Assembly: GCF_003003215.1 (NCBI RefSeq) | Contig: NZ_PVUF01000003.1 | Span: 62,001-126,000 of the forward strand | Length of the DNA: 64,000 bases | Reading direction: 5' to 3' | Source: Tritonibacter scottomollicae | GTDB lineage: Bacteria > Pseudomonadota > Alphaproteobacteria > Rhodobacterales > Rhodobacteraceae | In this document: piece after piece, positions 15,732 to 55,927 of the stretch | Layout: each line of letters opens with the position of its first letter | How positions within the stretch are numbered: the first letter of the stretch is position 1 | Made by a program: the position numbers and the translations under genes | Notes under the pieces: model-generated | The model's database searches: none | Seen by the model: the letters and a program-made list of their open reading frames with translations, nothing else | Told to the model about the DNA's origin: nothing

Positions 15732-15792
15732 GCCCGCGCCTGACCTTGGGGAGGCGTGAAGCGCCTTCCCGGGGGGAAGGTCAGGCGCGGGC
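15732..15792. terminator. Nested inverted repeat after the DUF4238 gene
   Basis: Perfect 16-bp arms, GCCCGCGCCTGACCTT (15732-15747) and its complement (15777-15792), enclose a smaller GC-rich hairpin (about 15749-15770). It starts 15 bases after the stop codon. There is no T-run, so it may be a transcript-end structure or a repeat element boundary. Confidence 0.5.
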
Positions 15793-20660: not shown

Positions 20661-20775
20661 TCCCCTGTGAAGGGGAAAGGGGGCGCTCCCGCCCCCTTTT
20701 GGTGTTTTGCAGTCGCAAAACGCCGAAAAGGCGTTGGGGGTGGCGCCGGGCCTTTGGCCCGGCGCCACCCCCAAC
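20661..20775. repeat. Array of five adjacent hairpins
   Basis: Consecutive inverted repeats, all perfect: 20661-20676 (6-bp arms), 20676-20699 (10 bp, loop CTCC), 20704-20721 (7 bp, loop AGTC), 20719-20735 (6 bp, loop GAAAA) and 20733-20775 (20 bp, loop TTT). Neighbours share one to three junction bases. The array lies between divergent genes (DUF2937 and the RTX-like gene), so it is not simply a terminator. Confidence 0.8.
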
Positions 20776-35040: not shown

Positions 35041-35158
35041 GACGGGCGGGCTCCCGCCCGTCCCGGTGGCATGATACATGCCACCACGCCCGTTGGGCGT
35101 GGCGCGTTGCCCCAGATGGGGCAACGCGCGCAGCCGACCCTCAATGAGGGTCGGCTGC
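35041..35158. repeat. Array of five back-to-back hairpins
   Basis: Perfect inverted repeats fill the stretch: 35041-35062 (10-bp arms), 35065-35085 (9 bp, loop ATA), 35086-35100 (6 bp, loop GTT, extendable to 8 bp by borrowing from its neighbours), 35102-35129 (13 bp, loop GA) and 35130-35158 (14 bp, loop A). It lies between the convergent ends of the VOC and mutase genes. The sequences of the five stems are unrelated. Confidence 0.85.
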
Positions 35159-47671: not shown

Positions 47672-47817
47672 TCGCTTCGGGCTGCGCCCGAAGCGACCCG
47701 CGCGTCGCGCGCCCCATCCGGGGCGCGCGACGCGCTCGGCCCAACTGCAACGTCAGCTTTTCAAAGCTGGGCGTCGCAGGCGGGAGCCTAGCGCCAGCCG
47801 CAACGCAGACGCTGGCG
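47672..47817. repeat. Array of hairpins between the MFS gene and pccR
   Basis: Perfect inverted repeats at 47672-47696 (11-bp arms, loop TGC), 47700-47735 (16-bp arms, loop ATCC), 47754-47769 (7-bp arms, loop TC) and 47792-47817 (7-bp arms, 12-nt loop). The first two are separated by three bases. The first could stop the MFS transcript, but there is no T-run. Confidence 0.75.
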
Positions 47818-50451: not shown

Positions 50452-52107
50452 TCAGCGCTGCGAGGTCTCCCAATCCGGATTGAACCAAGGCTCTGCATTT
50501 GAGGACGGCAGACGGCGCCCCAGGATATGATCGGAGGCTTTCTCGCCGGTCATGATCGAGGGACCGTTGAGGTTGCCATTGGTGATGCGCGGGAAGATCG
50601 AACTATCCGCCACCCGCAGCCCCTCGACGCCGATCACCCGGCATTCGGGGTCAACCACGGCCATCGGGTCATCCACCGCGCCCATCTTGCACGTACCGCA
50701 GGGGTGATAGGCGCTTTCGACATGTTCGCGCAGAAAACCGTCGATCTCCTCATCGGTTTGCAGGTCGGTGCCGGGCTGGATCTCATGCTTGAGGTAGGGC
50801 TTCATCGCGTCCTGAGCAAAGACCTCGCGCGTCAGGCGCACGCATTTGCGGAAATCGATCCAGTCCTGCTCGGTCGACATGTAGTTGAACAGGATCTTCG
50901 GCGCGGCATTGGGATCGGCGCTGGCCAGGGTGACCTCACCGCGCGAGGCGGAGCGCATCGGGCCGACATGGGCCTGGAACCCGTGCCCCTCGGCAGCGAC
51001 CTGACCGTCGTAGCGCACTGCGATGGGCAAGAAGTGATACTGAATGTCCGGGTAGTCTATCCCTTTGTCGGAACGGATAAAGGCCGCACTTTCGAACTGG
51101 TTGGAGGCCCCCAGCCCGGTTTTGGTAAACAGCCACTGCGCGCCGACCAGCGCCTTGCCGAAGAGGTTCCAGTATTTATAGAGCGTGATCGGCAGCTTGG
51201 AGGCGAACTGGAAGTAGAACTCCAGGTGGTCCTGCAGGTTTTGCCCAACGCCGGGGCGATCTGCGATCACCTCGATGCCGTGTTCGGCCAGATGCGCGGC
51301 GGGGCCAATGCCCGAGAGCATCAGGAGTTTCGGCGAATTCAGCGAGGAGGCTGCGAGGATCACCTCCACATCCGCACGGATCACCTCGATCTGGCCACGG
51401 CGCTCGACCTCGACACCAACGGCGCGGCCCTCCTCGATCACCACCTTCCGGGCCAGCGCCCGGATCATGGTGCAATTGTCGCGCTTCAGGGCGGGCTTCA
51501 GATAGGCGTTGGCGGCAGACCAGCGGCGGCCCTTGTGGACCGTCATCTCCATCGGGCCGAAGCCCTCCTGCTGCTCACCATTGTAGTCCTTGGTGACCGG
51601 ATAGCCCGCCTGCTGCCCGGCCTTCACAAAGGCATCATGCAGCGGGTTGTCGCGGGGGCCGCGGGTGACATGCAGCGGGCCATCTTTGCCGCGCCAGTCG
51701 GGATCGCCGCCATGGCCGCGGTCGTCCCAGGTTTCCATGCGTTTGAAATAGGGCAGCACGTCGGCATAGGACCAGCCTGTCGCGCCGCTTTCGGCCCAGT
51801 GGTTATAATCGCCGGCGTGACCGCGCACATAAACCATGCCGTTGATCGAGGACGAGCCCCCCACGACCTTACCACGCGGCGTGACCAACTCGCGCCCACC
51901 CAGATGCGGCTCGGGCTGGGATTTGTAACCCCAGTCATACATCGCCATGTTCATCGGGTAGCTCAAGGCGCCCGGCATCTGGATGAACGGGCCTGCATCG
52001 GTGCCGCCATGTTCGATCACCAGCACCGATTTCCCCGCCTCGCTCAGACGGTAAGCCATGGCGCAGCCTGCGCTGCCGGCCCCAACAATCACGTAATCCG
52101 CGTTCAT
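50452..52107 (-). CDS. betA: Choline dehydrogenase
   Basis: 551 residues, GMC flavoprotein oxidising choline to betaine aldehyde at the membrane. The FAD-binding [24 protein letters not shown] is at the start; GMC signature regions [14 protein letters not shown] and [17 protein letters not shown] follow; the catalytic His lies in [12 protein letters not shown], with [16 protein letters not shown] near the end. An ATG at 52116 leaves only one or two bases after the AGGAG, so ATG 52107 is the better start. It follows betB after a 144-base gap that contains the G-rich hairpin. Confidence 0.94.
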
Positions 52108-52175
52108 CGCGTCCATTCTCCTGTCACAGGGCCGACCCGTCGGGGCTGACCAAAAGGCATAGCTTCTCTGGTCCC

Positions 52176-52230
52176 GCGCGTCCTTTTGGGCGACGGGGTG
52201 GGTGGGTGGGCGTCGCCCAAAAGGACGCGC
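52176..52230. repeat. Perfect 20-bp hairpin with a G-quadruplex motif as its loop
   Basis: Left arm GCGCGTCCTTTTGGGCGACG (52176-52195) and its exact complement (52211-52230) enclose the 15-base loop GGGTGGGTGGGTGGG (52196-52210). The G-rich strand is the template strand for betB and betA; the transcript would carry the C-rich version. It lies between betB and betA. Confidence 0.9.
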
Positions 52231-52251: not shown

Positions 52252-53709
52252 TCAGAAGGCTGCTTCGCAATCGCCCATGCGCACATAGACCGACTTCACT
52301 TGGCTGAAGTGCTTGATCGCCTCCTTGGAGTTTTCACGCCCCACGCCAGAGGCCTTCACACCGCCAAACGGCGCCTCGACCGGCGCGTCATTGTAGGAAT
52401 TGATGAAGCAGCTGCCCGCTTCCAGCTGACCGATCACCCTGTGGGCGCGGGTGAAATCCTTGGTGAAGACACCGGCGGACAGGCCAAACTCGGTGTCATT
52501 GGCGCGCGCGATCACCTCTTCTTCGGTTTCGAAGTCGAGCACACACATGACGGGGCCAAAGATCTCCTCGCGGGCGATGGTCATATCGTCGGTGACATCG
52601 GCAAAGACGGTGGGCTGCACGTAGTAGCCGTCCATCTCGGCGCGCGCACCGCCGCAGATCAGCCGTGCGCCCTCTGCCTTGCCCTTCTCGATATAGCCCA
52701 GCACGATGTTCATCTGGTTTTCGGTCACCATCGGGCCGAAGTTCACCTCTTCATCCATCGGGTCGCCCAGCTTGGCGGTCGCTGTGCGCTCGGCCAGACG
52801 GGCGAGGAAGGTTTCCTTGATGTCCTTGTGCACAAATACCCGCGTGCCGTTGGAGCAGACCTGACCGGAGGAGTAGAAGTTGCCGTTGATCGCGCCGGAG
52901 ATGGCGCTTTCGATGTCGGCGTCCTCAAACACCAGCATCGGGGATTTACCGCCCAACTCCATGGTCACATGCTTCATGCCTTCGGCGGCAGCGGCATAGA
53001 CTTTCTTGCCGGTCGGCACAGAGCCGGTGAGCGAGACCTTGTCGACGCGCGGATCAGTGACCAGAGAAGCGCCCACTTCGCCCATGCCCTGAATGACGTT
53101 GTACAGCCCCGCAGGCGCACCGGCCTCGATCAGGATCTCAGCCACTTTCAGCGCGCAGAGCGGCGTGGTCTCGGAGGGTTTGAACACCATCGAGTTGCCA
53201 CAGGCCAATGCAGGCGCGCCTTTCCAGCAGGCGATCTGCGTGGGGTAGTTCCAGGCGCCGATGCCGACGCAGAGCCCCAGCGGTTCGCGGATGGTATAGA
53301 CCCAATCGTCGCCCAGCTGGATATGTTCGCCCGTCAGGCTTGCCGCCAGACCACCGAAATACTCCAGCGCATCAGCGCCCGAGGTGGCGTCTGCCACCAG
53401 AGTTTCCTGCAACGGCTTGCCGGTGTCATAAGTCTCCAGCACCGACAGATCATGGTTGCGCTCGCGCATGATGTCGGCGGCGCGGCGCAGCACCCGGCCA
53501 CGCTCGGTGCCGGACATCTTCGCCCAGATCTTCTGTGCCGCCTGCGCAGACGCCAGCGCCTGATCGACGATGGCGGGGGTGGCAGCATACACGCGGGCGA
53601 TCTCTTCGCCAGTGGCGGCATAGATCACCGGGATCGGGGTGCCGGAGGTGTCTTCGATATATTCGCCATTGATGAAATGGCTGGCTTTGGGCTGGGCCGG
53701 ATGTGTCAT
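52252..53709 (-). CDS. betB: Betaine aldehyde dehydrogenase
   Basis: 485 residues of the NAD(P)-dependent aldehyde dehydrogenase family, converting betaine aldehyde to glycine betaine. The catalytic Glu is in [11 protein letters not shown] and the nucleophilic Cys in [16 protein letters not shown]. The opening [25 protein letters not shown] resembles BetB and distinguishes it from general ALDHs, and the neighbours betA, the BCCT gene and betI agree. It is transcribed after the BCCT gene and before betA. Confidence 0.94.
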
Positions 53710-55277: not shown

Positions 55278-55336
55278 GTTTTGGTTTTTGGACGCCAATT
55301 TTTGAACACTCATCCGGGCTGACGCACTCTTATTTC

Positions 55337-55927
55337 ATGGCACGAAAACGCATCCGCGACATCCGCAACGAAGAACTGATTGAAGCCACCATCGTCACCG
55401 TTCACAAACGGGGTTATGGCACTGTAACAATGGCGGAAATCGCGCAGGAAGCTGGCACATCCGCCGCTTCGATCAGCTATTACTTCGGCTCCAAGGAAGG
55501 GCTGATGGAGGCCACCATGCGGCATCTGTTGCGCAAGCTGCGCTATGCCATGGTGGCGGGCTACGGACAGGCCGAATCGCCACACGAACGGCTCTATGCG
55601 TTGATGGATGCGAACTTCTCAGATTCGCTCTTCACTGTGCCGCAATGCAGCATCTGGATGCAGTTCTGGGCCAGCGCGCCCTATTCGTCAAAACTGGCCC
55701 GCCTGCACCGCATCAACCGCTCGCGCGTGCGGAGCCACTTTGTGGCCGAGCTGAGCCAGCTTGTCCCCGCCGACCAGATCGAAACCGCACGCCTGGCGCT
55801 GCAAAGCTATATGGATGGTGTCTGGCTTCAGGCGGCGCAGTCGGACGACCCGCTCGACAGCGCCAGCGCCCGCCGCGCCGCGCATCGGGTGGTGGATCTG
55901 GTCACCTCTCGAGAGCTGGTCGCCTGA
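55337..55927 (+). CDS. betI: Choline-responsive TetR-family repressor BetI
   Basis: 196 residues. The N-terminal HTH reads RRGYGTVTMAEIAQEAGTSAASISYYFGSKEGLMEATMRHLLRKL-like (residues 20-65), and the following RLYALMDANFSDSLFTVPQCSIWMQFWA is characteristic of BetI. It should repress the bet genes until choline binds. It is divergent from the BCCT gene across a gap with its operator. ATG 55337 is chosen from homology (MARKRIRDIRNEELIEAT); the ribosome-binding site is weak. Confidence 0.92.
   Translation: MARKRIRDIRNEELIEATIVTVHKRGYGTVTMAEIAQEAGTSAASISYYFGSKEGLMEATMRHLLRKLRYAMVAGYGQAESPHERLYALMDANFSDSLFTVPQCSIWMQFWASAPYSSKLARLHRINRSRVRSHFVAELSQLVPADQIETARLALQSYMDGVWLQAAQSDDPLDSASARRAAHRVVDLVTSRELVA

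Follow-up and report, generated by a model that had tools for sequence, protein, structure and literature searches.

The window, a 64,000-nt stretch of the Tritonibacter scottomollicae contig NZ_PVUF01000003.1, carries betB, betA and betI, and a long perfect hairpin lies between the first two of these genes. The features that matter here, with coordinates counted from the start of the window, are:

50452..52116, - strand: betA, choline dehydrogenase (NCBIfam), transcriptionally downstream of the hairpin
52176..52195, no strand (given in + strand order): left 20-nt arm, GCGCGTCCTTTTGGGCGACG, a perfect complement of 52211-52230
52194..52212, - strand: 19-base conserved core CGCCCACCCACCCACCCCG (family consensus CGCCCRCCCRCCCRCCCCG), including two closing base pairs
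52196..52210, + strand: loop GGGTGGGTGGGTGGG, four G3 runs with single-base spacers, the canonical quadruplex motif; recurs in relatives
52211..52230, no strand (given in + strand order): right 20-nt arm, 100% complementary to the left arm
52252..53709, - strand: betB, betaine-aldehyde dehydrogenase (NCBIfam), transcriptionally upstream of the hairpin
55334..55927, + strand: betI (NCBIfam)

The stem begins 21 nt past the betB stop codon, and on the + strand its 15-nt loop is precisely GGGTGGGTGGGTGGG, which becomes CCCACCCACCCACCC on the bet-sense (-) strand. The original prediction of 20-bp perfect arms around a 15-nt loop of four G3 runs between betB and betA is exact to the base; since betB and betA both lie on the - strand, its statement that the bet transcript carries the C-rich version of the loop is likewise correct. 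The loop is a canonical G-quadruplex motif by the usual definition, in which a single strand carries four runs of three or more G separated by 1-7 nt. As single-stranded DNA, either strand of the hairpin folds at -28.5 kcal/mol; in 200 shuffles the G-rich strand gave -13.6 (sd 2.1) and the C-rich strand -11.7 (sd 2.1), and no shuffle equalled the native value. There are 30 inverted-repeat pairs in the window with arms of at least 12 nt at most 80 apart, and one other pair, at 20733-20775, also has 20-bp perfect arms, so that a long stem by itself is not unique there. What goes beyond chance is that one and the same loop returns in unrelated stems at other places. The hairpin at 20733-20775 has a 3-nt loop. 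Other perfect hairpins of the window have 16-bp arms with a 4-nt (47700-47735) and a 29-nt loop (15732-15792), and two adjacent ones of 13 and 14 bp lie at 35102-35158.

We searched the genome of the organism (G000; 4.68 Mb in 72 contigs) for further copies. The closest other matches to an 18-base core of the arm have 3 mismatches, and there are 11 of them, compared with 25 for the reversed pattern; the loop has no further match within 1 mismatch. A covariance model returned a single additional weak match (E 0.23), a long hairpin at G000:C4:201852-201892 (L203) with a different loop, AGGGCGCTTTGCACCCA. None of 12 loci searched against Rfam 15 reached the gathering score, and the window gave only two sub-threshold matches, one of which, to mir-3151, covers the bet hairpin at 18.8 bits against a cut-off of 83. 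In a sample of Alphaproteobacteria the loop is present in 5 of 289 genomes; two of these are Rhodobacteraceae (the present genome and G092), both with the hairpin, and in the other families of the sample it occurs in 3 of 284 genomes, none with a stem. A full-text literature search, thin on subscription papers, found no published description of the element.

A BetB scan provided 80 named loci, a set found by gene context and not by the loop pattern. A hairpin with the C-rich loop lies behind betB in 28 of the 80, the family loop being CGCCCRCCCRCCCRCCCCG on the bet-sense strand. All four C3 runs with single-base spacers are intact in 23 of the 28 hairpins, as in Leisingera aquimarina DSM 24565 (L042) and Phaeobacter sp. 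CECT 5382 (L052), and one run is broken in L033, L046, L051, L065 and L104, the first of which is Tritonibacter mobilis NBRC101030. The arms vary between loci (GCGTCCTTTTGGGCGACG, TTGCCCTTTTGGGCAACG, TCGTCCCTTCGGACGACG and others) yet remain complementary. The original prediction would have been overturned had the loop proved to be a random variant in otherwise similar hairpins; the reverse was found, with a constant loop and changing arms. An alignment of 28 distinct bet hairpins, 10 of them from the same genus and 18 from the BetB scan, has 93.3% of its cells paired, and its covariation of 0.429, versus 0.135 for shuffled alignments, is reached by 0 of 500 shuffles. The hairpin is absent from 51 of the 80 betB-betA loci, where the gap is short, holds other sequence or an inserted small ORF, or is broken off as the contig ends, and the element is therefore dispensable. 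One further locus (L034), whose loop is cut by a contig end, was counted apart from the 28 of 80. The four true cases of a broken loop at bet have stems with 1, 2, 3 and 3 mismatches, and the stems of intact loops have 1.0 on average; these cases are too few, and we dropped the notion that broken loops have worse stems.

A second conserved and apparently structured stretch, GCTGAGAGGT ... CCTCAG/CTCAAG ... ATCCTTGACC, was noticed by eye in the betB-betA gap just before betA at L042, L043, L052, L054, L057, L061, L081, L086 and L102; it is without an Rfam match in L042, L061, L086 and L102. At L045, L060, L062 and L066 an apparent small ORF fills the gap of ~424 nt, and the loop hairpin was not found there. 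The Leisingera-like bet locus L043 comes from a record titled Nocardioides marinus (JAHVJD010000002.1), which is probably mislabelled.

Beyond the bet locus, we scanned 394 genomes of the family with the loop pattern GCCCNCCCNCCCNCCCCG and a reversed-pattern control. The pattern is present in 81 of them, part of the matches being poly-C. The copy-rich genomes G087, G380, G258 and G391 have 28, 15, 13 and 11 loop matches, with 4, 0, 0 and 0 in the reversed controls; G054 was excluded, since it has 19 matches but 17 in the control. The search for arm and loop in this genome and its relatives, as originally proposed, thus recovers the element once in its own genome and recurrently in related Rhodobacteraceae, with up to 28 loop matches per genome. 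Dispersed copies were taken from 30 loci and 60 places, chosen mainly from the copy-rich genomes, and more came from four genus searches. Of 122 distinct loop places, 116 form 10 or more Watson-Crick pairs out of 16; as the set was gathered by a fixed loop pattern, the constancy of the loop within it is partly by construction. Matches with C at a spacer were dropped, in the 30-locus set L112, L118, L125, L133 and L138, all without a stem. The spacers in a 69-row set are A or G, with T in 7 of 207 and C removed by the filter.

The stems of 85 non-redundant copies span 8-34 bp, mostly 16-21. Their arms mostly differ from locus to locus, also within one genome, and a few copies of one genome share a stem (e.g. 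L320, L323 and L325; L237 and L251). Among 69 mixed copies 90.7% of cells pair, and covariation is 0.886 versus 0.200 when shuffled, a value that 0 of 500 shuffles reach; two of five covariation measures, the cruder ones (pairs changed on both sides and pair types), are not above the shuffles in this mixed set. The same loop recurring while the arms change and covary upholds the original view that the feature is not due to chance. The bet hairpin appears to be one copy of a Rhodobacteraceae DNA element with a mostly locus-specific stem and a constant 15-nt loop predicted to be able to form a three-tetrad quadruplex.

Several contigs break at the loop. In the congener G002 two contigs start inside it, one from each side (L022 and L030), and the contig of L034 (Tritonibacter horizontis) that ends inside it is probably of the same assembly; at L322 a contig starts inside or beside the quadruplex loop. 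We treat these breaks as an anecdote, as if polymerase, sequencing or assembly had trouble at the loop.

The dispersal of the element recalls REP and BIME palindromes, which are dispersed intergenic hairpins, often behind genes, with arms conserved within a genome. Here, in contrast, it is mostly the loop alone that is conserved, and only few copies of a genome share a stem. A small REP-like dispersed repeat that spreads via single-stranded DNA at the replication fork would be in keeping with the number of loop matches in the richest genome, the shared stems named above and the replication polarity described below. However, most copies of one genome share little beyond the loop and the matches in viral contigs are stemless, and we consider such a repeat highly improbable. 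A mobile palindromic element, one of the roles originally suggested, finds no sign of movement: there are seven loop matches in viral contigs, none with a stem, and most stems differ between loci.

The genes around the copies were called by a home-made ORF and codon-GC rule, and the 24 of 116 copies that overlap a predicted ORF were left out of the count. In 74 of the 92 copies that were counted, the C-rich strand is the sense strand of the upstream gene, and in 18 of 92 that gene runs in the opposite direction. The loop starts 15-46 nt past the stop codon in 63 of the 74 sense copies, so the stem begins almost at the stop codon. The next gene of these 74 is co-directional in 41 cases and convergent in 33, which is no enrichment of convergent ends either against gene ends at large (654/1705, p 0.33) or against wider gaps (352/813, p 0.90). 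Convergent gene ends thus hold no excess of copies, and nothing points to plain termination; with convergent genes as the proxy for transcription-unit ends, the preference of intrinsic terminators for such ends is not seen. The frequency of T behind 85 stems is only 0.15-0.35 per position, slightly raised at positions 2-5 (0.35, 0.26, 0.22 and 0.26), and behind the bet stem the sequence has no T run that could provide the U-tract of an intrinsic terminator. The bet hairpin is not in the output of a terminator scan, whose loop limit of 8 would exclude it anyway. Twenty upstream proteins (10 of G258 and 10 of G087) have no common theme; they include MATE and ABC transporters, glyS, MscS-like, GcvT-like and YaiI proteins, and five without a family at 1e-20. 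A link to particular genes was dropped on this ground. The element is not bet-specific.

The main rival to a DNA-level reading is that the element is an RNA-level 3'-UTR hairpin behind the stop codon. Such a hairpin would protect the 3'-end of the mRNA or attenuate downstream expression, its C-rich loop would be bound by a protein, Rho or RNA, and its replication polarity would be a side effect of the instability of G-rich repeats that are oriented otherwise. The sense orientation and tight placement at the stop codon, the location between betB and betA, the slightly raised T at positions 2-5 behind the stem and the covariation of the stem all agree with it, and an mRNA 3'-end hairpin explains the placement equally well as a DNA structure does. 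The missing U-tract at bet and the reversed upstream gene in 18 of 92 copies speak against it, and it does not explain the bias among stem mismatches.

Read on the C-rich strand, the non-Watson-Crick pairs of the 85 non-redundant copies are 57 A.C, 25 C.C and 23 C.T, against 6 G.T, 2 G.G and 3 G.A of the opposite class (105 vs 11), with 3 A.A and 1 T.T besides; 42 of the 85 copies have an A.C pair and 5 a G.T pair. The 28 bet rows are biased in the same direction (31 vs 3). On the G-rich strand A.C, C.C and C.T read as G.T, G.G and G.A, and the mismatches are thus those tolerated by a hairpin of that strand; the set was selected by Watson-Crick pairs only, so its selection was strand-neutral. 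As controls, 201 T-tail hairpins of related DNA have 100 G.T, 23 G.G and 39 G.A (162) and 44 A.C, 23 C.C and 50 C.T (117), and 78 other post-stop hairpins have 38 G.T, 7 G.G and 13 G.A versus 24 A.C, 9 C.C and 9 C.T (58 vs 42). The excess in the controls sits in G.T, and in the T-tail set C.T is slightly in excess in the opposite direction. When the loop is masked, DNA parameters make the G-strand stem the stabler in 56 of 85 copies and the C-strand stem in 8 of 85; RNA parameters do so in 51 and 7 of the 85, respectively. Because the three G mismatches are favoured alike, and not G.U alone, DNA fits better than RNA, going by general mismatch stabilities. The bias could equally be explained by selection against folding of the C-rich strand. 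For a 3'-UTR hairpin, mismatches of the types A.C, C.C and C.T with G.U almost absent are unlike those of ordinary hairpins. Protection of the mRNA end at the bet hairpin, also among the roles originally listed, is possible, but it does not predict this mismatch pattern.

The orientation of the copies relative to replication was read from GGGCAGGG, which we take to be a KOPS-type octamer marking the leading strand. This mark was checked by the switch in its strand counts, from 30:0 to 5:43 in G256, from 16:2 to 1:10 in G414 and from 12:1 to 1:19 in G316. In the genome of T. scottomollicae it occurs 455 and 263 times (718 in total), with 103 and 89 for the reversed-pattern controls, and serves in this family as a replichore mark of KOPS-like type. 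The window has 0 occurrences on the + and 8 on the - strand, and the bet-sense strand, which carries the C-rich loop, is therefore the leading strand. Strand counts cover 90 copies, with places assigned by hand. By contig- or replichore-level sums, some of them weak (G394 1:0, third region of G415 4:2, G393:C13 2:1, G391:C25 7:4), 83 of the 88 scored copies have their C-rich loop on the leading strand, and there are 2 ties. All copies are leading in G087 (25/25), G258 (11/11), G391 (11/11), G316 (6/6), G256 (5/5), G415 (5/5), G414 (3/3) and G113 (3/3), as is the one copy each in G394, G092, G090 and the window. Three genomes are mixed, G393 (2/3), G380 (6/9) and G334 (2/3), the five contrary copies being three of G380, one of G334 and one of G393. 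Local 20-kb counts alone, which are noisy, give 40 of 47 leading and 7 contrary, with 5 ties. As controls, 888 of 1738 genes on the same DNA (51%) and 144 of 286 T-tail terminator-like hairpins are leading. The polarity holds where neighbouring genes run opposite, in G391 and G393 and in G316, G414 and G415 (L325, L319 and L324), which ties the orientation to the fork beyond the share due to gene direction. A 3'-UTR hairpin alone does not predict this polarity, and taking all its points together we regard that explanation as somewhat unlikely.

The copies L152-L161 (G380) and L383-L385 (G334) have stems of ~30 bp or more, several of them perfect, and a looser replication polarity, and possibly form a subtype.

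Polarity of this kind could also arise without function, if a leading-strand polymerase stalls at a template quadruplex and a template switch then creates an inverted repeat or makes an existing one perfect. Arms that are specific to each locus and end exactly at the motif, the constant loop and the leading-strand polarity would all follow from such a mutational by-product; in E. coli a quasipalindrome correction specific to the leading strand is known, from the titles of the reports, and lends it support. However, it does not account for why the copies lie behind stop codons or are kept at bet in many genera, nor for the origin of the 19-base core at dispersed sites or the mismatch bias, and we judge it quite improbable.

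The explanation that we tentatively favour, at somewhat below an even chance, is a DNA hairpin, capped by a quadruplex, that folds on the strand templating leading-strand synthesis and usually also transcription, and that would act as a brake on RNA polymerase. The G-rich strand would fold into the quadruplex-capped hairpin in the cell, copies in which this strand is the lagging template would be lost through deletion, and its position as the non-transcribed strand would be disfavoured for a similar reason. Natural copies are mostly in the configuration that is left, with the G-rich strand as leading template and transcribed strand, and the simplest account is that the loops fold in cells and that the other orientations have been lost, probably, by analogy with E. 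coli, through the instability of similar repeats. In E. coli, having the G-rich strand as the lagging template lowers the stability of (G3T)8 by 5- to 174-fold, and 270- and 354-fold differences are attributed to that strand being the non-template one, where transcription lets the quadruplex form (PMC10530614). Findings of the same study that speak against such a purge are that (G3T)4 mutates ~1000-fold less than (G3T)8 in E. coli, that repeats without transcription form no quadruplex in supercoiled duplex DNA, and that in one strain the leading-template orientation made a (G4T)4-dimer 4-fold less stable (PMC10530614); the purge argument is thus an extrapolation. With respect to folding, d(GGGT)4 within a duplex folds in vitro into a parallel quadruplex (PMC7699706). 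Quadruplex sequencing of a Rhodobacter genome, which may or may not carry the element, is reported to have found no enrichment in any genomic region (PMC6486626).

Folded on the transcribed strand, the hairpin would slow or stop RNA polymerase just behind the gene, which is the least certain step, and a brake of this kind would set the expression of betB apart from that of betA. The DNA reading accounts for both the mismatch bias and the polarity. The original interpretation is partly supported: replication polarity and the strand bias of the mismatches favour a DNA-level structure, and a mobile element finds no support here.

The nearest described elements are quadruplex heptamer repeats, GGGAATC in Xanthomonas and GGGGAYT in Nostoc, which have in common with the present element a dispersed, mostly intergenic distribution, a preference for four G-runs and the proximity to stop codons (PMC4692102). 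These heptamers stand in tandem and have their G-rich version on the coding strand behind ORFs; no leading or lagging preference is reported for them (PMC4692102). In contrast, the bet-type element has units of four bases, GGGY, with single-base spacers inside a long stem-loop, a C-rich coding strand and leading-strand polarity. Intrinsic terminators and post-stop inverted repeats are likewise GC-rich hairpins just behind the stop codon; inverted repeats behind stops generally have variable spacers of 4-5 bases and conserved arms (PMC13155455). Here, on the contrary, a 15-base spacer is constant and the arms are variable, and the element differs from intrinsic terminators in having no U-tract at bet, no enrichment at convergent ends and a strict replication polarity. 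KOPS octamers, with the motif GGGNAGGG, are short, unstructured and G-rich on the leading strand, and occur hundreds of times per genome; a strong leading-strand polarity is common to both, whereas the element is rare and structured and has its C-rich side on the leading strand. The quadruplex-hairpin-duplex switch of E. coli reportedly described by Kaplan in 2016 concerns, by its title, a conserved sequence able to be a quadruplex or a hairpin, and the likeness to the present element extends to that title only.

A bolder formulation, which we hold to be unlikely, is that these elements constitute a new class of replication-oriented, quadruplex-capped chromosome hairpins, folded in vivo on whichever strand is template for leading-strand synthesis as well as for transcription. 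At the ends of genes on the leading strand they would act as directional brakes that hold up RNA polymerase and perhaps the replisome too. The in-cell folding and relevance of bacterial quadruplexes have so far been argued largely from predictions. The Rhodobacteraceae element offers a natural experiment, in which one G3N loop is set in many stems with a near-single fork orientation and mismatch set, as if the G-rich strand folds in the cell. Being short and present in named marine bacteria, it may be deleted, inverted and measured.
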